64,000 nt of DNA from Acidimicrobiaceae bacterium (GTDB taxonomy: Bacteria > Actinomycetota > Acidimicrobiia > Acidimicrobiales > JAUTXP01). Under the pieces are notes generated by a model that was given only the letters and a program-made list of their open reading frames with translations, ran no database searches and was not told the origin of the DNA. Made by a program: the position numbers and the translations under genes. The stretch covers positions 1 through 64,000 of the forward strand of contig JAUTXP010000054.1 of NCBI GenBank assembly GCA_030837965.1, written 5' to 3'. Shown here in pieces: positions 27,525 to 46,708 of this stretch; position 1 is the stretch's first letter, and every line of letters starts with the position of its first letter.

Positions 27525-28607
27525 TCAGCCCACGGCACGCTGGATGGCCATGCCCGCCAAGGCCAGGGCCATGACGATCATGGCTGCGGCCAAGGCCCCG
27601 ACCAGCACGGCCACGAAGAGCAGGGCCGCGGCCGAGCGCAGGCGCCGGGCCGCGCTCTGCGACTCCACCAGCCGAGGTCGCTCGTGCCCTCGCGTCTGCG
27701 GACGGGGCGTGGTCCGGGTGACCGTGGTCGTCGTTCGGGCGGGTGCGGCAGGCCACGGTTCTTGGGTCGGCGCGGCCGGCGGCGGGGGCGGGGGCGGGGG
27801 CGAGATGCCTGCCGGTGGGACCGACAGCGAGGCGGCGGTGGGCATGACCGGCGGCTCGGCCACGACCGGGGCGGGCGAGGGCACGGTCACCGGCGGCGGG
27901 GTCACCTCCAACGACGGCGGACTCCACCGAGCCGCGGGCTCCTCCACCGAGGGCTCGGGCGCAGGCGTAGGCGCCGTCTCCGGCGCAGGCTCAGTCTCGG
28001 CCACCGGCTCGGGCCGGCGCAGCCAGGACGGCGGCTCTGGCACTGGGTCGGGTTCCGGCTCCGGCTCGGGCTCCGGGTCCGGCTCGACCACGGCCACGGC
28101 CTCAACCACCGGCTCCGGCTCGGGCTCGACCTCCGGCTCCGCTTCGGCGATCGGCTCGGGCTGGCGCAGCCAGAACGGCGGCGCTGGCTCCGGGTCCGGC
28201 TCGCGTTCCGGCTCGACGTCGGGCTCGCGTTCCGGCTCTTCGTCCTCGATGCGCCACGTGCCGGTTGCATCCGGGTCAGGCGCAGGCACCGGCTCGGGCT
28301 CGGCGACTGGCTGTGGTTCGGACTCCCGCTCGACCGCGCCGACCGGTTCAGGCTCAGGCTCCGGCTCGCGCTCAGCGGGTCGCAGCCAACTGGGCACGTC
28401 GGGCTCGGGCACGTCGGGCTCGGGCTCGCTGCGCAGCCACGACATGGCGGCCTCGGCCGGCGGCGTGACCGGCGGCGTCACCTCGCCCTCCTCGCGCTTT
28501 TCCACAGCAGCAGGTGCTGTGGAAAAGTCGGAAGGGGGCGGGCCGGGTGGGTTTTCGGCTGGCTCCTCGGCGGTCTCGCTGTCGCCCGAGTCGTCGAAGC
28601 TGCTCAC
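27525..28607 (-). CDS. tail-anchored Pro/Glu-rich protein with repeated SWLR motifs
   Basis: About 360 residues. The body is a highly biased Glu-Pro-rich region with repeats built on 'SWLRPAE' / 'FWLRQPEP' / 'SWLRRPEP' spaced by EPEPEP stretches, followed by a Pro/Thr-rich region and an Arg-rich segment. A single membrane helix close to the C-terminus (about 330-352, '[20 protein letters not shown]') makes it tail-anchored or type II-like. The GTG at 28607 is a best guess since no ribosome site is clear. A palindromic element contributes '[10 protein letters not shown]' near the N-terminus. A spacer or scaffold role is inference. Confidence 0.65.
28497..28527. repeat. palindromic element family B, copy 2, inside coding sequence
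   Basis: 13-bp perfect arms CTTTTCCACAGCA (28497-28509) and complement (28515-28527) around GCAGG. Same core as at 12677-12711. On the minus strand it encodes '[10 protein letters not shown]' in the Pro/Glu-rich protein. Confidence 0.8.
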
Positions 28608-28709
28608 GGCCGGCAACCGTTTGGGCGCGCAAACCTGGCACGCTGTGACAGACGGGCCCTGCGCCACGAAGGGGCGCCGCCCCCTCGGCTGGAGGAGCGA
28701 GTCACGGGA

Positions 28710-29816
28710 GTGAACACGATCGACTCGATGGTAGTCCGGGGCCCCTTGGCCTGGGACGAACCAGAGCCTCAGCCCAGCCGTCGATGGCTGGCCGCGGTCA
28801 TCGCGGCCATGCTCGTGGTCGGGCTGCTCGTCGCGTCGGTCACCGTCCAGCTCCCGTACTACGCCCTGGCCCCGGGGTCGGCCAAGCAGGTGAACGACCT
28901 CATCAACGCCGACTCGCCCATCTACACCCCGAAGGGCCGGGTGCTGATGGCCACCGTGAGCCTGCGCCGGGCCCAGCCCATCGACGTGATCGAGGGCTGG
29001 TTCGACGACGACATCGAGATCGTCAAGGAGGAGCAGATCGTCGGGCGCACCCCGCCCAAGCAGTACCACCAGCTCAACCTCCAGGCCATGGACGAGTCCA
29101 AGCGCACAGCCATCGTGGTGGCCCTGCGCAGACTGGGACACGACGTGCCTGCCCATGGCCAGGGCTCGCTGATCACCAACGTGATCCCTGGCCGCGGTTT
29201 TCCTGCGGAGGGCCACCTCCAGCAAGGAGACGTCATCACCGAGGTGGACGGCCAGCCCGTGCAGTTCGTGGAGGACGCGGTCAGGCTTCTGCACCAGCAC
29301 AAGCCGGGCGATGCCGTCCGGCTGCAAGTGACCGGCGTGGACGGGGCCAGCCGCATCGAGCAACTGGTGATGGCCCGCAACGACGACGGCACCGCGGTGC
29401 TCGGCATCGAGCTCCAGACGTTCAAGCTCGACTACGACGTGCCCTTCAAGGTGGACATCGACTCGGCTGACATCGGCGGCCCGTCGGCCGGGCTGGCATT
29501 CACCCTCGGCGTGCTCGACGAACTGACGCCGGGAGAGTTGACCGGGGGCAAGGTGGTGGCCGCCACCGGGACGATCGGCATCGACGGGGCCGTGGGCGAT
29601 GTGGGCGGCGTCCCCCAGAAGACGGCCGCGGTGATCGACGCGGGGGCCAAGGTCTTCCTCGTGCCGCCGGGCGAGTACGAGCAAGCCAGGAAGCGGGCGG
29701 GCAAGCGGCTCCAGGTCATCAAGGTCGCCACGTTGGACGAGGCCCTCGCTGTCCTGGGCAGGCTGGGCGGCAACGCCAGCGCGCTCGGGCCCGGCTCGGG
29801 CGGGGCGCCCGGCTAG
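28710..29816 (+). CDS. membrane PDZ / Lon-type (S16) serine protease
   Basis: 368 residues: N-terminal membrane helix (about 27-48), a PDZ domain (about 150-225, '[20 protein letters not shown]') and a C-terminal Lon-like proteolytic domain. The Ser-Lys dyad is present: S259 in 'GGPSAGLAF' and K304 in '[11 protein letters not shown]', 45 residues apart, close to the spacing in Lon. Homologues (YlbL/SdrC-type) process or turn over membrane proteins. Start GTG 28710 is uncertain; GGAGGAG lies 13-19 nt upstream and ATG 28728 is possible. Confidence 0.88.
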
Positions 29817-29838: not shown

Positions 29839-32409
29839 ATGTCCGCATCGGCCGCCGAGATCCATTTCGCCGCCGAGTTCGTCACCTTTCTGGCCGCGGC
29901 CGTGGGCCTGGCCGTCGCCCTGCTCCGGGGTGACCTGCTCACCGCGCCCCGCAGCCGGGTGCCCCTGGCCGTGGGCTTCTGCGCCCTGGGCACGTCCGCC
30001 TTCCTCCACGGGTCGCTGCTGCTCGACGCGGCCGACGACCGGGCCATCCTCGTCGCCCTGCGGGCCATCGCGGTGGCGGGCATCGCCTTCGGCGCGTCCC
30101 GTTGGGCGGGGCCGCGACAGGCGGGCGGTCTGCTGTGGGGAGGGGTGGCCGTGCTGGCCGTGGCCGCGGCCATGGGGTTGGGCCACTGGACCCTCGCCAC
30201 CAGTGCGGTGTTGGCCGCGGGCAGCCTGGCCATCGGGTTCGCGGTGGTGGTTTCGGCCCGTCGATCCATCGCCTCGCGCGTGGCGGCCAGCGCGTCGCTG
30301 ACGCTGTTGCTCGTCGTGCTGGTCCTGGCCGTCGGCATCTCGGCCGTGCTCAGCAACACGGTTGAGGACCAGGCCCGGCAGCGCCTGGCCACGCGAGCGG
30401 GAAGCGAGGCCAAGTTCGTGGCCGACCCGGCCCGCGTCCGCCTGGTCGAGGCCAGGTTGGCCGCGGCCTCGCTCAAGACCGACCGGCTCGCGGACCTGCA
30501 AAAGGTGCGCCAGAACCCGAACGACGCGGGCGCCGCCAGTGCGGTCGCCGCTTCGCTCGACATCCTCAGTGGCAACTTCTTCGAAGGCCGCGAGATGCTC
30601 TACATCGACGCGGCCAGCAAGGCCCCCGTGGCCACGACCGCGGGCTTCCCGGTGGCCACCACCGCGCTGGCCGGCTCGCCGGCGGTCAGCGAGTCGATCA
30701 CCCAGCAGCACCCGGTCGGCTCCATCACCGAGGTGAGCGGCAGGCTGGTGGTCTTCGGCACGTTCCCGTTGAAGGACAGGGTGAATGGCGTGCCCGTGGT
30801 GATCGGCGTGGTGGTCACCGTGTCGCCGGTGGACGCGGGCTACTTCCAGACGCGCATCGCGGGGGAGACCGGCGTGGGGGTGGCTGCGGCCGACCGCCAC
30901 GGGTTCCTGGCCGCGTTCGCGGCCCAGCCACCGTTCGGCCGGGTGGCGCCGCTCATCGCGGACGTGTTCAAGGACACGGGCAAGCGGCCTACTGGTGAGG
31001 CGTCGGGACGCTTCTTCGCCGCCGCGCCGGTGCTCGACAGCGCGCAGCGCCCGGTGGCCGCAGTCGTGGTGTCCCAGCCCACATCGGTAGTGGCCGACAC
31101 GCGCGAGGAGCTCTACCGGGTCCTGTTCCTCATCGCCTTGGGGGGGACGCTGCTGGCCTTGGCCCTGGCTGCACTGGTGGGCAGCAGGATCGGCGCCGGG
31201 CTTCGACAACTGACCCTCGCGGCCGAGGCCATCCAAGGCGGCGACTTCAGCACCCGCGCCGACGTGCAGGCCGACGACGAGGTGGGCATGCTGGGCGCGG
31301 CCTTCGACTCGATGGCGGGCTCCATCCAGGAGAAGACGGGCGAACTGCAACACGCGCGCATCCGGTTGGAGGCCGTGGTCGCGGGCATGGGCGAGGCCCT
31401 CGTCGCCACCGACGAGGACGGCAACATCACCGACTTCAACCGGTCGGCCGAGGAGCTGTTGGGCATCAGCGCGGCCGAGGCCAAGGGGCGGGGCGCCGAC
31501 AGCGTCGTGTTGCTTCGCGGCGACGACGGCGCGTCGCTCGCCGAGCGCCTGCGCAAGCCCTCGCCTCGGCGCTGGTCGGCCGAGGGCACGATCGAGACGG
31601 CCGACGGCAGCGAGGTCCCTGTGGCCGTGTCGGCCGGCGCCCTGCGGGGCTTGGAGGACGAGTTGGCGGGCCAGGTCTTCGTGCTGCGCGACCTGCGCGG
31701 CGAGCGCGAGGTCGAGCGCATGAAGACCGAGTTCCTCTCGCGCATCGGGCACGAGCTGCGCACGCCGCTGACCGGCATCACCGGCTATGCCGAACTGCTG
31801 ACCCGCAAGGACCCGCCGCCCGACCTGGCCCGCCAATGGCACCACGAGATCCTCAAGCAGTCGCGCAACCTGTTGCGGATCGTGCAGATGCTCGAGTTCT
31901 TCGCGTCGACCGGCGCCAACCGGGCCATCCTGCGCCCCGAGGTGGTCGACGTGCGCGAGGTGGTGGACGAGGCCGTGAACCGGCGGTCGGCCAAGCTCGA
32001 CGGGCAGTGGTCCATCAAGCGGCGGGTGGCGCGTGGCGTCCCCAAGATCGTGGCCGACGAGCGCTGGCTCAGGCTGGCCATCGACGAGCTGGTCGACAAC
32101 GCGGTGAAGTTCTCGCCCGATGGCGGCACCATCTCGGTGACGGCGTCGACGGAGGGCAACCGGGTGGAGATCGCGGTGGCCGATCGGGGCAAGGGCATGA
32201 CCAGGGAGGAGCAGGCCAGGGCCTTCACCGAGTTCGTGCAGGGCGATACGTCCGATACGCGCATGTTTGGCGGGCTCGGCCTTGGTCTTAGCCTGGTACA
32301 GCGGGTGGCCGAGGCCCACGGGGGCTCGGTGGCCTGCACCTCAACCCCCGGAAAGGGGTCGAAGTTCTCGATCTTCCTCCCAGTCGGGCCGATAGAAGAA
32401 CGACGATGA
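29839..32409 (+). CDS. membrane sensor histidine kinase with 7TM-like region, extracytoplasmic sensor, HAMP and PAS
   Basis: 856 residues. An N-terminal set of several membrane helices (to about 175) is followed by a roughly 240-residue extracytoplasmic sensor and a membrane helix near 430-450. Then come HAMP (about 450-505), PAS (about 510-620, '[20 protein letters not shown]'), HisKA and HATPase_c. H638 in '[12 protein letters not shown]' is the phosphorylation site; '[14 protein letters not shown]' and '[19 protein letters not shown]' complete the catalytic part. ATG follows GGGGAGACGGG. It overlaps the lipoprotein gene by ATGA, and a response regulator follows. Confidence 0.9.
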
Positions 32410-33578
32410 GACGCGCCTTCGCCGTGGGCCTGGCCGTGGTGGTCGGGCTGCCCCTGCTCGCCGGGTGCAGCCGGACTCCCGTGCGCCCGGGCGAGGCCCG
32501 CGTCGATCCGCACGGCGTGGTCGAGGTCATGGAGGCGGGCGGTCAGTACCAGGCCTTGAAGTCGGCCAAGACGGTTCACAACGGCGACAGCGTGCGGGTC
32601 AAGTCGGGCCAGGCCGACGTGCGCCTGCCCGCGGCCGAGCTGTCCATGCGCGACGGGGCCGAGTTGGTGATCGGCGCATCGCCCGACCTGCGCTCTGGCG
32701 ACTTGCTGGTCGTGCCGTTGCGGCGGGTGACGGTGACCAGTGCGGGGACTGACTTCGAGGTGGCGGGCGCGGCCCGGTTGACCCGCCTCTACGCGGTCAC
32801 GGCGGCCAGCTATGTGGGCTCGGTGTCGGTGCGCTCGGCCGGGTCCAGCCTCGATGTGAAGGCGTTGCGCCAGACCACGGTGGCCGCCCTCGGAAGCGTG
32901 GCCCAGGCGGCCGAGCCCCTGCAGTACAAGGAGAACGACCCGTGGGACCGGCGCTTCCTGGCCGACGCCATCGACTTGGGCGCCGAGTTGCAGGCTCGCA
33001 GCGACGGCGCCAACAACCAGTTCCGGGGCCAGGGTTCGACCCCCGGCTTCTACCGCAACCTGCTGCCCCAGTTGGCCCGGGTGCCCGAGTTCGACGCCGC
33101 CCTGCTGGACGGGGCCCGCCCGCCGGGCGAGCACATCGTGGGCGCGGGCATCGCGTTGGCGGGCGCCCATGGCGGGTTCGTGGAGCGGTGGCGGCGGGTG
33201 TTCTCGTTCCGCAGCGAAGGGGCCACGTGGGGGTTGGTGGCCATGGACGAGCAGGTCCAGCAGGTTGCAGGGCTGGTGCGTTCCATCGACGACGCCCTCG
33301 GCCGGGCCCCGCTGCCGGGCGTGGCCAGGCAGTTGGCGCTGAGCCCGCCCGGGGCGCCCTCGGGCCCAGGCCCGGCGGCGCCCACGACCCCGGGAACGAC
33401 GCCGTCCAACCCGCGCAATCCGGGCCCAGGCGACAACCCGAGTCCGCCGCCTCCCACCACCGTCCCGCCGCAACCGGGCATCATCCCTTCGCCGCCTGAC
33501 ACCGGGCTGCCCATCGATCCGCTGGCCGACGACGCGGTCGACACCATCAACGGGCTGTTGCCCAAGCCGGGCGGCTGA
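32406..33578 (+). CDS. FecR-like domain lipoprotein
   Basis: 390 residues: lipoprotein signal with LLAGC (C21), a FecR-type beta domain (about 35-165: 'HNGDSVRVKSGQADVRLPAA', 'SMRDGAELVIG', 'VSVRSAGSSLDV'), a helical region (about 175-300) and a Pro-rich tail from 310. FecR domains usually bind or sense sugars or peptides at the cell surface. Position between a sensor kinase (ATGA overlap) and a response regulator suggests it feeds the kinase a signal; that is inference. Confidence 0.8.
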   Translation: MRRAFAVGLAVVVGLPLLAGCSRTPVRPGEARVDPHGVVEVMEAGGQYQALKSAKTVHNGDSVRVKSGQADVRLPAAELSMRDGAELVIGASPDLRSGDLLVVPLRRVTVTSAGTDFEVAGAARLTRLYAVTAASYVGSVSVRSAGSSLDVKALRQTTVAALGSVAQAAEPLQYKENDPWDRRFLADAIDLGAELQARSDGANNQFRGQGSTPGFYRNLLPQLARVPEFDAALLDGARPPGEHIVGAGIALAGAHGGFVERWRRVFSFRSEGATWGLVAMDEQVQQVAGLVRSIDDALGRAPLPGVARQLALSPPGAPSGPGPAAPTTPGTTPSNPRNPGPGDNPSPPPPTTVPPQPGIIPSPPDTGLPIDPLADDAVDTINGLLPKPGG

Positions 33579-33585
33579 GCATGGG

Positions 33586-33591
33586 TACCCT
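33586..33591 (+). promoter_or_regulatory. TACCCT -10 box of the response regulator gene
   Basis: TACCCT ends 7 nt before ATG 33599. Its position inside the longer possible reading frame favours 33599 as the real start. Confidence 0.45.
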
Positions 33592-33598
33592 TTCCGAC

Positions 33599-34066
33599 AT
33601 GTCGTCTTCGGCCCCTCCGTCGCCGCCTCGCCGGGTGCTGATCGTGGACGACGAGGCGGGCATCCGCGAGCTGTGCCGGGTCAACCTGGCCCTGGCCGGC
33701 TTTGACGTGTGCGAGGCGGCCGACGGGTTCGCGGCTGTGGAGCAGGCCCGCACGGCCAAGCCCGACCTCATCTTCCTCGACGTGCTGATGCCGGGCATGA
33801 GCGGGTGGGAGGTGCTGGCCAAGCTGCGTGAGGACGAGGCCACCGCGTCCATTCCGGTGGTCATGCTCACGGCGCTCACCAGTGAGGACGACCAGATCCG
33901 GGGCTGGGAGGGCGGCGTGGTCGACTATTTAACCAAGCCCTTCAACCCGCTGTCGCTGGCCGACTGGGCCACTGCGGCCTTGGCTCCGCGGGACCCGGCC
34001 GAGGACGACGAGCGCCGCAAGCGAGCCGTGGCCAAGGTCAGCATGGTCCGCGCCCTGCGCCAGTAA
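33599..34066 (+). CDS. single-domain response regulator (REC only)
   Basis: 155 residues: a receiver domain with acidic pocket 'IVDDEAG', phospho-acceptor D61 in 'LIFLDVLMPGMSGWEV', the Thr/Ser switch 'VVMLTALTSEDD' and Lys in 'DYLTKPFNP', then a short basic helix and no output domain. It would signal by protein-protein contact, with the kinase two genes upstream as likely donor. An ATG at 33581 would add six residues. Confidence 0.88.
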   Translation: MSSSAPPSPPRRVLIVDDEAGIRELCRVNLALAGFDVCEAADGFAAVEQARTAKPDLIFLDVLMPGMSGWEVLAKLREDEATASIPVVMLTALTSEDDQIRGWEGGVVDYLTKPFNPLSLADWATAALAPRDPAEDDERRKRAVAKVSMVRALRQ

Positions 34067-34168: not shown

Positions 34169-36271
34169 ATGGCCGACGATCGACGCCTTTCGGCCGATGA
34201 GGTCGCCTCCCGCGCCTTTTCCACCGGCTTTCGAGGGCTGGACGCCAACGAGGTCCGCGCCTACCTGCAACGGGTGGCCGACGACCTGCGGGCTGGGGCC
34301 GAGCGCGAGTCGGCGCTGGCCACGCGACTGGCCGAGGCCGAAGAGCGCGCCGCCCATCCCGAGATCGACGAGGACACGCTCCTGCGTCTGCTGGGCGAGG
34401 AGACGGCCCGGGTCATGCGCAGCGCCAGGGAGGCGGCCGCCGACCTGAAGGCCCACGCCGAGGAAAGCGTCCAGCAGATCCTCAAGGACGCCCACGACGA
34501 GGCCAAGCGCGTCCGGTCCGCAGCCGAGTCAGTGCTGGCCGAGCAGACGGAGTTGGCCGAGGCCGAGGCCCAAGCCCTGCGCGAGCAGGCCCGCAGGGAC
34601 GCGGCGGCCATGATCGAGTCGGCCACGGCCGAGGCCGAAGCCGCTCTGGACCAGGTGCGGGAACGGGCCAAGGCCATGGTGGTCGAGGCCCAGTCGGCGC
34701 GCGAGCGCATCTTGTCGGACCTGGCCCGGCGGCGGCGCGTGGCCCACGTGCAGGTCGAGCAGTTGCGGGCAGGCAGGGACCGGCTGCTCGACGCCTACCG
34801 CATGGTGCGGTCCACGTTGGAGGACGTCACCGACGAGTTGCAGCGGGCTGAGGCCGAGGCCCGACAGGCGGCCGAGGCCACGGCCCGGCGGCTGGCCGCA
34901 GAGGGCGACGATGCCCTGGCCGAGCAAGCGGACGACGAGGCCGGCGAGGATGGCGGGGCCGACGAGGCGGGCCAGGCGGGCGGCGAAATCGAAGATGCCG
35001 AGGTCGGGCCGGACGTCGAGGTCGCCGTCGAAGAAGAAGCCGACCAGCCGGTCGCAGTGGAGTCGGCCGCTATCGGGTCGGCCGCTATCGGGTCGGCCGC
35101 AGGGGGGTCGGCCGCAGTCGAGCAGGTCGCGCCCCGGTTGGTGACCACCACGGTCGAGGCCGCGTCCCCCGCCCCGGTGACCGCAGCCCCATCCCGGCCT
35201 GCGTCGGTGCCCGTGGAGGAGCGGCGGCTCTCGTCGTTGCGCATCATCCGCCGCGAGCGCGAGCGCGAGCGCGAGCGCGAGGCCGGGTCCGACCCGCCGC
35301 AGCCCGAGCCCGTCGCGGCCGTGTCGGAGTTGGACGTGGTCGAGCCTGCGGCACCCGATGAGGCGGTGCGCATCCTCGCTCCGGTCGCGGCCGAGGTCGA
35401 GGCCGCGCCCGCGCCCGACGTCGAGGCGGCCAAGCCCGCGGTGGAGGATGTGTTCGCCCGTCTCCGGGCCTCGCGGGAGGAGTCGGTGGCCAAGGCCCGC
35501 GAGGTCCTGGCCGAGCCCGAGCCCGAGGCAAAGTCCGAGCCGGACCCGGAGCCGGAGTCAAAGTCCGAGCCGGACCCGGAGCCGGAGCACAGGGAAGCCG
35601 TCGAAGGCGAGCCCGCGGTCAGCAACGAGGACGAGCGGGCCCTGCAAGAGCGCGACGAGGCGGTGGCCGACATCGAGGCCCGCTTGGCCCGCAAGCTCAA
35701 GCGGTCGTTGCAGGACGAGCAGAACGACGTGCTCGATCGACTGCGCAGCCGGCGCTCGCGCTCGACGGAGGGCGTTCTGCCCGCGCTGGACGAGCACCTG
35801 GCCCGCCACGTTGCCGTGGCCCTGCCCTTTTTGGAACAAGCCGGTCCGGGCGTGGACGTGGCCGCGGTCGCCCACGAGTTGGCCGACGCCATCGTCGGCC
35901 CCTTGCGCCGCCAGTTGGAGCCTGCCCTCCGCGGTGGTTCCAACGAGGGCGATGACGGAGAGGGCGACGACGCCGAGGAGTCGGACCCGGCCGATCGCAT
36001 CGGCGCGGCCTATCGGGAGTGGAAGGGCGACCGCATCGAGCGGCTGGCGTCGCACGCGGTGGTGTCGGCCTGGTCGCGCGCCGCCTATCGCTCAGTGGCC
36101 GAGGGCACCGTCCTGCGGTGGGTCGTGGACGACCAAGGCGCCCCCTGCCCCGACTGTGACGACAACGCCTTGGCCGGTCCCACGGCCAAGGGCGACGAGT
36201 ACCCCACCGGCCAGCAGCATCCGCCCGCCCACGCCGGCTGCCGATGCCTTCTGGTGCGGGCCTCGACGTAG
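34169..36271 (+). CDS. DivIVA-domain coiled-coil protein with phage minor-head-like C-terminal domain
   Basis: 700 residues. The N-terminus carries a DivIVA-type motif ('SADEVASRAFSTGFRGLDAN', 'EVRAYLQRVADDL'), followed by a long coiled coil to about 245, then a low-complexity acidic/Ala region with in-frame repeats (AIGS/SAAIGS near 304, RERERERERE near 355, EPDPEPESK repeats near 455). The last 90 residues form a separate domain ending with C660-x2-C663 ('CPDCDDN') and 'PPAHAGCRC' (C691, C693). That is the Cys/His signature found in SPP1 gp7-like phage head-morphogenesis proteins. The N-terminal part suggests polar or septal localisation; the role of the tail is unknown. Confidence 0.8.
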   Translation: MADDRRLSADEVASRAFSTGFRGLDANEVRAYLQRVADDLRAGAERESALATRLAEAEERAAHPEIDEDTLLRLLGEETARVMRSAREAAADLKAHAEESVQQILKDAHDEAKRVRSAAESVLAEQTELAEAEAQALREQARRDAAAMIESATAEAEAALDQVRERAKAMVVEAQSARERILSDLARRRRVAHVQVEQLRAGRDRLLDAYRMVRSTLEDVTDELQRAEAEARQAAEATARRLAAEGDDALAEQADDEAGEDGGADEAGQAGGEIEDAEVGPDVEVAVEEEADQPVAVESAAIGSAAIGSAAGGSAAVEQVAPRLVTTTVEAASPAPVTAAPSRPASVPVEERRLSSLRIIRREREREREREAGSDPPQPEPVAAVSELDVVEPAAPDEAVRILAPVAAEVEAAPAPDVEAAKPAVEDVFARLRASREESVAKAREVLAEPEPEAKSEPDPEPESKSEPDPEPEHREAVEGEPAVSNEDERALQERDEAVADIEARLARKLKRSLQDEQNDVLDRLRSRRSRSTEGVLPALDEHLARHVAVALPFLEQAGPGVDVAAVAHELADAIVGPLRRQLEPALRGGSNEGDDGEGDDAEESDPADRIGAAYREWKGDRIERLASHAVVSAWSRAAYRSVAEGTVLRWVVDDQGAPCPDCDDNALAGPTAKGDEYPTGQQHPPAHAGCRCLLVRAST

Positions 36272-36281: not shown

Positions 36282-39251
36282 ATGCGTACTCCCGCCGATT
36301 TCCCGGCTCGTCGCCGCACCCAAGGACGGGCCCGGGTCTGGCTCGTCGGTGCCGTCGTCCTCGTCGTTCTGCTGGTGACGTGGCTGCGTGGGATCGCAGG
36401 CTTCTACACGACGTACCTGTGGTTTCAGGAGCTGCACTTCACGCAGGTCTGGCGGACGATGCTGGGCACCAAGGGGATGCTCGCCACTGGGTTCACCGTG
36501 TTGTTCTTCGTGGCCCTGTGGCTGAGCCTGGCCATTGCCGACCGCATCGCCCCGCGCTTTCGTCTGGCGGGCGACGACGAGTTGGTAGCCAGGTATCGGG
36601 AGACGGTGGGTCCGCACGCGGGCAAGGTGCGCGTGGTGGTGGCGGCCCTGTTCGCCTTGTTGGTGGGGACCAGCGCGGGCGGACAGTGGCAGAACTGGCT
36701 GTTGTTCAGGCACGGCGTGTCGTTCGGGACGAAGGACCCGCAGTTCCACAAGGACATTGGCTTCTACGTGTTCAAGCTGCCGTTCCTCGGGTTCTTGGTG
36801 AACTGGGTCTTCGTGGCCTTGGTGATGATCGCCGTGGTCACGCTGGTGGCCCACTACCTCAACGGCGGCATCCGTCTGCAAGCCCCGGGCCAGCGGGTCA
36901 CGCCCGCGGTCAAGGCCCACGTCTCCGTCCTGCTCGGGGCCATGGCATTGGTGAAGGCGGCCGGGTACTACCTCCAGCGCTTCGAGCTGATGTCGTCGCG
37001 CTCGGGTGTGGTCGACGGGCCCACGTACACCGTCATCCACGCCCGGCTGCCTGCGCTCACGCTGCTGTCGGTGATCTCGTTGGTCGCCTTCGCCCTGTTC
37101 GTGGTCAACATCCGGCGTCAAGGCTGGGTGCTGCCCGTCATCGCCGTCGGCCTGTGGGCGTTCATCAACGTGGTGGTCGGCAGCCTGGTTCCGGCCTTCA
37201 TCCAGAAGTTCCGCGTGGAGCCGTCGGAGATCCAGCGCGAGCGGGCTTACATCCAGCGCAACATCAAGGCCACCCAGGCCGCCATGGGCATCCAGGGCGT
37301 GGCGCCCGACCAGTACGAGTACACGACGTCGTTGACGGCGGACGACCTCAACGAGAACTCCGAGACGATCCGCAACATCCGGCTGTGGGACCCCAGCCTG
37401 AGCGACATCAACACGACCTACCAGAAGCTGCAGGAGATTCGTGGCTACTACAGCTTCGAGGACATCGACGTCGATCGCTACACCATCGACGGCCGCGTGA
37501 CCCAGGCCATCGTGTCGGTCCGCGAGCTGAACGCGGCCGAGCTGCCCGGCAAGTCGTTCGTGAACCGGCGGCTCCAGTTCACGCATGGATACGGCGCCGT
37601 GGTGTCGCCCGCCAACGCGGTGACGGCCGACGGAAAGCCCGAGTTCGTGGTGAAGGACGTGCCGCCGGTGTCGACCGCGCCCGAGATCACCATTGCCCAG
37701 CCCCGCATCTACTACGGCGAGTCTGACTCCGGTTACGCCATCGTCGGCACCAAGCAGGCCGAGCTCGACTTCCAGGCCCAGTCCGGCCAGACCAAGACCA
37801 GTCAATACGAGGGCGCGGGGGGCGTGCCCATGAACTCGTTGCCCCGCAAGGCCGCCTTCGCCCTGCGCTTCGGCGACATGAACCCCCTCATCTCCGGGCT
37901 GGTGACCTCGAAGTCGCGCGTGATGTACGTGCGCAGCATCGGCGCCCGCGTGCGGGAGGCGGCGCCTTTCTTGCGTTACGACGCGGACCCGTATCCCGTG
38001 CTGGTCGGCGGGCGCATCAAGTGGGTGCAGGACGCGTTCACCACCACGTCTCGGTATCCGTACGCGCAGCGGGCCACGGTGGACAGGCTGGAGGACCGCA
38101 GCGGCCTGAAGACCGATTTCAACTACGTGCGCAACTCGGTCAAGGCCGTGATCGACGCGTACGACGGCACCGTCACCTTCTACGTCATCGACGACACCGA
38201 CCCGATGGCCAGGGCCTACCGCAAGATGTTCCCGAACCTGTTCACGGCCGGCTCGCAGATGCCGCAGGAGCTGCGTGAGCACCTGCGCTATCCCGAGGAC
38301 CTGTTCCGGGTGCAGACGTCGATGTACGGCCGGTACCACATCAACGACCCGAGCGACTTCTACCTGCGGGCCGACGAGTGGGACCTGTCGCAGGACCCGG
38401 GCTCGGGCGACCCCACTAAGGAGCTGCGCCAGATCCAGCAGCGCGACCCGCGCACCGGCGTGGTGTCGGGCTCCGGCCGAGCGGCCCGCATGGACCCGAC
38501 CTACGTGCTCATGCGCCTGCCCCATGAGCAGCAGGAGCGGTTCTTGATCCTCCAGCCCTTCGTGTTCCACTCCGAGGGGGACAAGCAGCAGAACCTGTCG
38601 GCCTTCGTGACGGCCAAGTCGGACCCGGGGCCGGACTACGGCAAGCTCCAGGCCTTCGTGATGCCAAGGGACATCCAGGTCGACGGGCCCTTGCTCGTCC
38701 ATGCCCGGATGCTGTCGAACAGCGCCGTGTCCGAGGCCATCTCGTTGTTGGGGCGGACCAGTTCCGAGGTGCGCATGGGCAACCTGTTGGTGCTGCCCAT
38801 CGGCGACTCGCTGTTATACGTCCGGCCCATGTACGTGCTGGCGTCGGCCAACAAGGTGCCCGAGTTGCAACGGGTCATCGTGGTGTCGGGGACCAAGGTG
38901 GTGATGGGCCGCACCCTGTCCGAGGCGCTCACGCTGTCGTTCGGCTCGGCGCCGCCCACGCTGGAAGAAGACCGCAGTGGCGTGGATGGTGTCACGCCCG
39001 GCCCCAGCCCGCCCCAACCCGGCGTCGGCGGGCCCGCGCCCAATGCCACCGTGCAACAGTTGCTCGACCAGGCCCAGGCTGCGTACGACGCGGCCAAGGC
39101 CGCATTGGCCAAGGGGGACTTGGGCGAGTACCAGCGCCAGGTCAACCTCATGGCCGACCTGATCAACCGGGCCCGCACGTCCAGCGGGGCCGGTGGCGCA
39201 GGCGGCGGCGCAGGTGGCGGCGGGGCCGGGGCCAGCGGCGGCGGCGCGTAG
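36282..39251 (+). CDS. UPF0182-family large membrane protein
   Basis: 989 residues, the usual family length. About seven membrane helices lie in the first 310 residues (first at about 20-37), followed by a very large extracytoplasmic part with 'FTHGYGAVVSPANAVT', 'VGGRIKWVQDAFTTTSRYPY' and 'DPGPDYGKLQAFVMPRDIQV', which are typical UPF0182 landmarks. The C-terminus has a Pro spacer, a helical segment ('LLDQAQAAYDAAKAALAKGD') and a Gly/Ala tail. The family is widespread in actinobacteria and cyanobacteria and has no settled function. Ends before a 19-bp-arm hairpin. Confidence 0.92.
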   Translation: MRTPADFPARRRTQGRARVWLVGAVVLVVLLVTWLRGIAGFYTTYLWFQELHFTQVWRTMLGTKGMLATGFTVLFFVALWLSLAIADRIAPRFRLAGDDELVARYRETVGPHAGKVRVVVAALFALLVGTSAGGQWQNWLLFRHGVSFGTKDPQFHKDIGFYVFKLPFLGFLVNWVFVALVMIAVVTLVAHYLNGGIRLQAPGQRVTPAVKAHVSVLLGAMALVKAAGYYLQRFELMSSRSGVVDGPTYTVIHARLPALTLLSVISLVAFALFVVNIRRQGWVLPVIAVGLWAFINVVVGSLVPAFIQKFRVEPSEIQRERAYIQRNIKATQAAMGIQGVAPDQYEYTTSLTADDLNENSETIRNIRLWDPSLSDINTTYQKLQEIRGYYSFEDIDVDRYTIDGRVTQAIVSVRELNAAELPGKSFVNRRLQFTHGYGAVVSPANAVTADGKPEFVVKDVPPVSTAPEITIAQPRIYYGESDSGYAIVGTKQAELDFQAQSGQTKTSQYEGAGGVPMNSLPRKAAFALRFGDMNPLISGLVTSKSRVMYVRSIGARVREAAPFLRYDADPYPVLVGGRIKWVQDAFTTTSRYPYAQRATVDRLEDRSGLKTDFNYVRNSVKAVIDAYDGTVTFYVIDDTDPMARAYRKMFPNLFTAGSQMPQELREHLRYPEDLFRVQTSMYGRYHINDPSDFYLRADEWDLSQDPGSGDPTKELRQIQQRDPRTGVVSGSGRAARMDPTYVLMRLPHEQQERFLILQPFVFHSEGDKQQNLSAFVTAKSDPGPDYGKLQAFVMPRDIQVDGPLLVHARMLSNSAVSEAISLLGRTSSEVRMGNLLVLPIGDSLLYVRPMYVLASANKVPELQRVIVVSGTKVVMGRTLSEALTLSFGSAPPTLEEDRSGVDGVTPGPSPPQPGVGGPAPNATVQQLLDQAQAAYDAAKAALAKGDLGEYQRQVNLMADLINRARTSSGAGGAGGGAGGGGAGASGGGA

Positions 39252-39431: not shown

Positions 39432-39486
<55 letters not shown>

Positions 39487-39508
<22 letters not shown>

Positions 39509-46655: not shown

Positions 46656-46708
46656 AAAAGAGCAGGTCACCGGGGCAATTCGAGTGTGGCCGCTAATGGG
46701 CATATCTC

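Follow-up and report, generated by a model that had tools for sequence, protein, structure and literature searches.

A DivIVA protein with a MuF-derived C-terminal domain at a fixed chromosomal locus of Acidimicrobiia

The fusion gene and its locus

The window, i.e. the whole stretch of 64,000 nucleotides analysed here, comes from an Acidimicrobiaceae bacterium and encodes a protein of 700 amino acids, delimited by ORF calling and translation, in which a DivIVA domain is joined through a coiled-coil-like stretch and a disordered linker to a MuF-derived domain. This reading frame is kept in dozens of genomes, which excludes an accident of gene calling. The genes and features of the locus are the following.

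27684..29816, + strand: PDZ-Lon-like membrane protease gene (PDZ_2, Lon_C), conserved upstream flank in the class, with a homologue in 62-63 of 80 loci
29839..32409, + strand: HAMP/PAS histidine kinase (Pfam); 10 out-of-class loci also have a homologue upstream of the fusion
32406..33578, + strand: lipoprotein-like protein with an LAGC motif, no Pfam match, with homologues at the same position in 6 out-of-class loci
33581..34066, + strand: single-domain response regulator (PF00072, E 1.2e-27), at the same position in the out-of-class locus L192
34169..36271, + strand: DivIVA-MuF fusion gene, 700 aa (ORF), with homologues in most sampled Acidimicrobiia genomes
34187..34534, + strand: DivIVA domain, residues 7-122 (PF05103, E 1.7e-13; TIGR03544, 3.4e-9)
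34535..34900, + strand: coiled-coil-like stretch, residues ~123-244 (heptad-like Ala/Glu/Arg-rich sequence in the translation)
34901..35647, + strand: acidic/Pro low-complexity linker, residues ~245-493 (from the sequence), containing VFARLR as a motif close to its C-terminal end
35648..36259, + strand: MuF-derived domain, residues 494-697 (alignments, phrog_2662, hhalign against viral MuF, AlphaFold2 pLDDT 92.8, Foldseek BFVD)
35699..35746, + strand: helix-1 motif KRxLxDEQNxxLDxLR, residues 511-526 (conservation of K511, R512, N519 and L522)
36146..36247, + strand: putative metal-binding knuckle CPDC...HAGCRC, residues 660-693 (conservation of H688, C691 and C693)
36282..39251, + strand: UPF0182 membrane protein, constant downstream neighbour (PF03699, E 9e-269)

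The initial annotation had called the N-terminus DivIVA-like, and profile scans bear this out, with 51.1 bits against PF05103 in the Pfam scan (cut-off 28) and a match to TIGR03544 DivI1A in the NCBIfam scan. PF05103 is also found in 65 of 68 class homologues (E <= 0.001), and the RGYD-type lipid-binding motif, a known DivIVA feature that reads FSTGFRGLDANEV in the window, has a similar counterpart in 54 of 68 homologues by strict regular expression. Most out-of-class homologues start with a DivIVA-type motif; two (L190 and L194) are apparently without it and a third (L202) ends at a contig edge. As in DivIVA/Wag31 proteins (PF05103, TIGR03544, NF050102), a DivIVA domain with the F-x4-RG[YFL]D-x2-EV motif precedes a coiled coil. 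The fusion differs from these proteins in its far greater length, in its additional C-terminal domain of 200 residues and in its position, which is next to UPF0182 and not within the ftsZ-sepF cluster, and its score of 24.4 bits against the canonical Wag31/DivIVA equivalog NF050102 falls below the cut-off of 260. The canonical DivIVA of the window genome is a separate gene on contig C5, beside genes identified from their sequence as SepF, FtsZ and IleRS. Its retention in the ftsZ-sepF cluster marks the fusion as a second scaffold and not as a remnant of a prophage. Two further adjacent DivIVA-domain ORFs lie on contig C28 of this genome (L233, ~3.7-5.0 kb), which together with the canonical gene and the fusion makes four DivIVA-domain genes in one genome.

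The fusion occupies a fixed chromosomal locus. In the class, its gene is placed between the PDZ-Lon gene and UPF0182; for 105 of 111 MuF matches, the first match encountered downstream in the same orientation is UPF0182, with a median gap of 117 bp between domain matches. All 13 out-of-class loci that were examined likewise have UPF0182 beside the fusion, and no other neighbour is constant in the class as well as beyond it. Being present in 143 of 149 class genomes, against 110 for MuF, UPF0182 is the more widespread of the two and is therefore not strictly dependent on the fusion. At the out-of-class locus L192, the kinase, lipoprotein-like gene, response regulator, fusion and UPF0182 are arranged as in the window, apart from an additional ORF ahead of the regulator; the shared order of the first three genes (29839-34066 in the window) suggests an old signalling module. 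In one genome (G070), the whole locus, comprising PDZ-Lon, a knuckle-less DivIVA-MuF and UPF0182, is duplicated (L206 and L207), each copy having its own UPF0182 and PDZ-Lon.

Further downstream, in the segment 39432-46726, a tRNA-Met precedes a large serine recombinase, a TraI-like helicase ORF, a C5 cytosine methylase and a GIY-YIG protein, and a 26-nt sequence at 39488 is repeated imperfectly at 46701. The segment is probably a small integrative element in a tRNA gene. With such an element and its recombinase nearby, the fusion could be read as a prophage remnant or as a chance read-through product beside integrated DNA, a reading that is hardly credible: the fusion lies outside the element, which is situated beyond the tRNA-Met at 39432, none of its immediate neighbours was seen to be a portal, terminase or capsid gene, and it is the sole MuF match in the window genome. 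Synteny and conservation of the fusion at a single locus, both class-wide and in further classes, led to the rejection of this reading.

Relationship to viral MuF proteins

A signature of SPP1 gp7-type proteins had initially been recognised in the last 90 residues. CPDC (residues 660-663) and PPAHAGCRC (685-693) do lie there, the tail reading CPDCDDNALAG...PTGQQHPPAHAGCRC, but the homology to MuF proteins spans some 200 residues (494-697), twice the extent claimed. Profile searches against gp7 families and fold prediction, both proposed at that stage, came out in favour of the relationship. The isolated C-terminal 206 aa match Phage_Mu_F (PF04233) at 2.1e-4, with 22.4 bits for a cut-off of 29.6, and the C-terminal region matches TIGR01641 (phageSPP1_gp7) at 2.7e-4, with 21-23 bits for a cut-off of 39.65; as both scores remain under the curated cut-offs, the domain is described as MuF-derived and not as a member of a curated family. 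The same 206 aa match phrog_2662, a portal protein profile, at 1.3e-8, profile positions 525-706 corresponding to query residues 27-202. This profile is found in 29 of 30 relatives from the order (best 9.1e-14), a support that far exceeds chance. Thirty C-terminal domains could be aligned over ~200 residues, with conserved blocks consisting of KRxLxDEQNxxLDxLR, a YREWK helix and the knuckle CPDCDDN..LAG..G..FPTG..HPPAHPGCRC.

A profile built from cellular sequences only recovers viral MuF proteins with E-values down to 5e-20, values that are optimistic on viral contigs since these were first retrieved by conserved motifs of the cellular domain; reversed decoys gave zero matches. The PHROG match and three named viruses are independent of this motif-based selection. 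The whole cellular model could be aligned with gp11 of the archaeal Methanoculleus virus L4768, a head-region protein (9e-16), and the profile also matches gp18 of Arthrobacter phage Kovu (1e-7) and Thermus phage Lalka27b (1e-4). Comparing the cellular and viral MuF profiles with hhalign gave a probability of 99.7% over 200 columns. Some of the viral homologues are portal-MuF fusions and some are encoded after a portal gene. A tblastn search of INPHARED phages with the window domain returned zero matches, so that the link between cells and viruses needs profiles or intermediate viral sequences. The relation concerns the knuckle-bearing types of MuF, as divergent MuF proteins (Mu gp30, RHEph05 gp6, Pam3_04 and JustaPhage gp5) were missed by the cellular profile.

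AlphaFold2 predicts the fold of the domain with confidence (88 cellular sequences, pLDDT 92.8, pTM 0.89). A Foldseek search of BFVD with this model gave 19 matches with E < 1e-3, the named ones being mostly portal, minor capsid, head morphogenesis and capsid maturation proteins. Searches of the PDB, by sequence profile and by Foldseek, found no MuF structure and no significant match, and the fold comparison therefore uses predicted viral structures. An N-terminus unlike DivIVA and a C-terminus devoid of gp7-like profile or structural similarity were both looked for, and neither was found.

Like the MuF superfamily with SPP1 gp7 (PF04233, TIGR01641) and the portal-MuF proteins (phrog_2662), the cellular domain combines a helical body with a C-x2-C ... 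PPxHxxCRC knuckle, and its ~200 aa align end to end with viral proteins, gp7 itself being compared through its family profile. Unlike them, it belongs to a DivIVA fusion encoded at a cellular locus, has a cell-specific helix-1 motif (KRxLxDEQNxxLD), is without the invariant viral T-E pair and stays under the Pfam and NCBIfam cut-offs; its gene neighbours are PDZ-Lon, the histidine kinase, the response regulator and UPF0182, and not a portal gene. MuF polymorphic toxins also contain a MuF domain within a multidomain protein. In these toxins, MuF is N-terminal, the toxin or a domain of unknown function is C-terminal and the genes lie in phages or prophages (PMC5576092), whereas in the fusion MuF is C-terminal, no toxin domain was detected and the gene is chromosomal.

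Distribution, origin and loss

The survey of Acidimicrobiia suggested in the initial annotation recovered the fusion in 110 of 149 class genomes with a class-wide profile search. Within the order, sampled with one genome per family, the domain is present in 46 of 59 genomes, and a survey of the phylum added 14 fusion genomes outside the class. In a scan of all species, the best 80 loci were Acidimicrobiia-like, with some doubtful labels including two 'Acidobacteria' and one 'Bifidobacterium breve'. The carriers form a large bacterial group of soils and waters, composed of Acidimicrobiia and some related Actinomycetota.

In a maximum likelihood tree of 61 domains, a branch with support 100/99 separates the cellular sequences, as one clade, from diverse viral ones, and this grouping makes a single ancient capture likely. 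The capture apparently took place once, before the sampled carrier classes of Actinomycetota diverged, and was followed by vertical inheritance. MuF proteins are almost confined to phages and prophages, and published work describes the MuF domain as one of unknown function (PMC5576092). Given this wide occurrence in phages and the narrow cellular range, we infer a transfer from phage to cell. The fixed non-prophage synteny, the class-wide presence and the origin in a single clade together support the original suggestion of a domesticated phage domain.

Homology to portal-binding MuF proteins would also suit an anti-phage decoy, which would bind the portals of infecting phages and either poison procapsid assembly or sequester it at the membrane. 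Defence genes have a patchy pattern, with which the housekeeping synteny and the class-wide, apparently vertical inheritance of the fusion disagree, and we regard such a role as very improbable.

The domain was not kept everywhere. In at least two lineages (L210 and L215), DivIVA is kept at the locus and MuF is absent, and two reduced genomes (L213 and L223) have PDZ-Lon and no DivIVA gene ahead of UPF0182. The knuckle is absent from lineages L203-L209, and is thus not essential everywhere. Lineages devoid of the knuckle or of the whole MuF domain represent later losses.

A possible docking role

Conservation is strongest in the first helix of the domain. K511, R512, N519 and L522 are found in 76 of 76 class rows of the alignment and in 10-11 of 12 out-of-class rows, and the polar residues K511, R512, Q518 and N519 are near-invariant across 88 sequences. 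For the knuckle, H688, C691 and C693 are present in all 76 class rows, while the full C-x2-5-C...H-x2-C-x-C pattern occurs in 70 of 76 class and 10 of 12 out-of-class rows, which were partly collected by these very motifs. The helix-1 motif persists better than any other part of the domain, being retained in several knuckle-less copies, and this persistence points to a functional surface.

The N-terminal domain of DivIVA proteins is expected to bind curved membrane and to polymerise. Computation shows the fusion together with its homology, conservation, synteny, origin in one clade and predicted fold; the localisation, docking function and partner proposed here are inferred. An ancient DivIVA paralogue would have been fused once to a phage C-terminus of the portal-MuF type, and would now act as a chromosomally encoded membrane scaffold docking a cellular partner, a proposal to which we give slightly less than an even chance. 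The DivIVA end and the coiled coil would polymerise in association with the membrane, where it is curved or septal, and from this polymer the flexible linker would present the MuF-derived domain as a docking head, made of a four-helix body capped by the Cys/His knuckle. In phages, MuF/gp7 attaches to the portal, according to a review (PMC6316719); this attachment to a portal ring would have been exchanged for docking of a cellular partner. As constant neighbour inside and outside the class, the adjacent UPF0182 membrane protein is the best candidate, although the adjacency of two genes speaks for an interaction only indirectly, and helix 1 (KRxLxDEQNxxLD) would be the likely contact surface.

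Alternatively, the domain would have no dedicated partner and would serve the scaffold only as a structural cap or for oligomerisation, with a knuckle that just stabilises the fold. Such a role, which we consider unlikely but worth retaining, would fit the disappearance of the knuckle or of the entire MuF domain in several lineages where DivIVA remains at the locus, as well as the highly variable length of the linker and coiled coil among homologues; the near-invariant polar residues of helix 1 and the fixed UPF0182 adjacency suggest, on the contrary, a specific contact. An improbable role is that of a DNA tether anchoring the chromosome at the pole or septum. The same review cites work on SPP1 gp7 titled as a DNA-binding protein interacting with the portal oligomer (PMC6316719), and Mu gp30 carries the annotation of a DNA pilot, but with a median net charge of -10 and a pI of 4.9 the cellular domain is acidic, no segment is clearly basic and even helix 1 reaches a median net charge of no more than +2, which makes DNA tethering less likely.

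More tentative than the docking proposal is its extension, in which a portal-docking domain captured once in an early actinobacterial ancestor would have become part of a second envelope scaffold system composed of the histidine kinase, the response regulator, DivIVA-MuF and UPF0182. If true, a viral head-assembly interaction would have been re-used to place a cellular membrane complex. A search of open-licence papers found no description of a DivIVA-MuF fusion; a study of DivIVA motifs mentions acidimicrobial DivIVA sequences and makes no mention of a phage domain (PMC9858780). With the fusion, an old viral domain that has been inherited vertically joins the components of bacterial cell organisation, and the uncharacterised UPF0182 family gains a candidate scaffold. 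As a conserved cellular MuF protein, the fusion also offers a route to study the MuF domain outside virions, and the proposals can be tested in isolates carrying it, such as Aquihabitans sp. G128, Aciditerrimonas ferrireducens MV1 and Acidiferrimicrobium sp. IK.

The linker itself contains a short motif, [ILVM]F[ASGE]x[ILMV][RK], in 28 of 68 homologues, against 0.15% of shuffled linkers. In the form [LV]FAx[IL]R, it recurs just N-terminal to the MuF domain (homologues L031-L110) and is kept in the DivIVA-only copies L210 and L215; it is possibly a binding motif.
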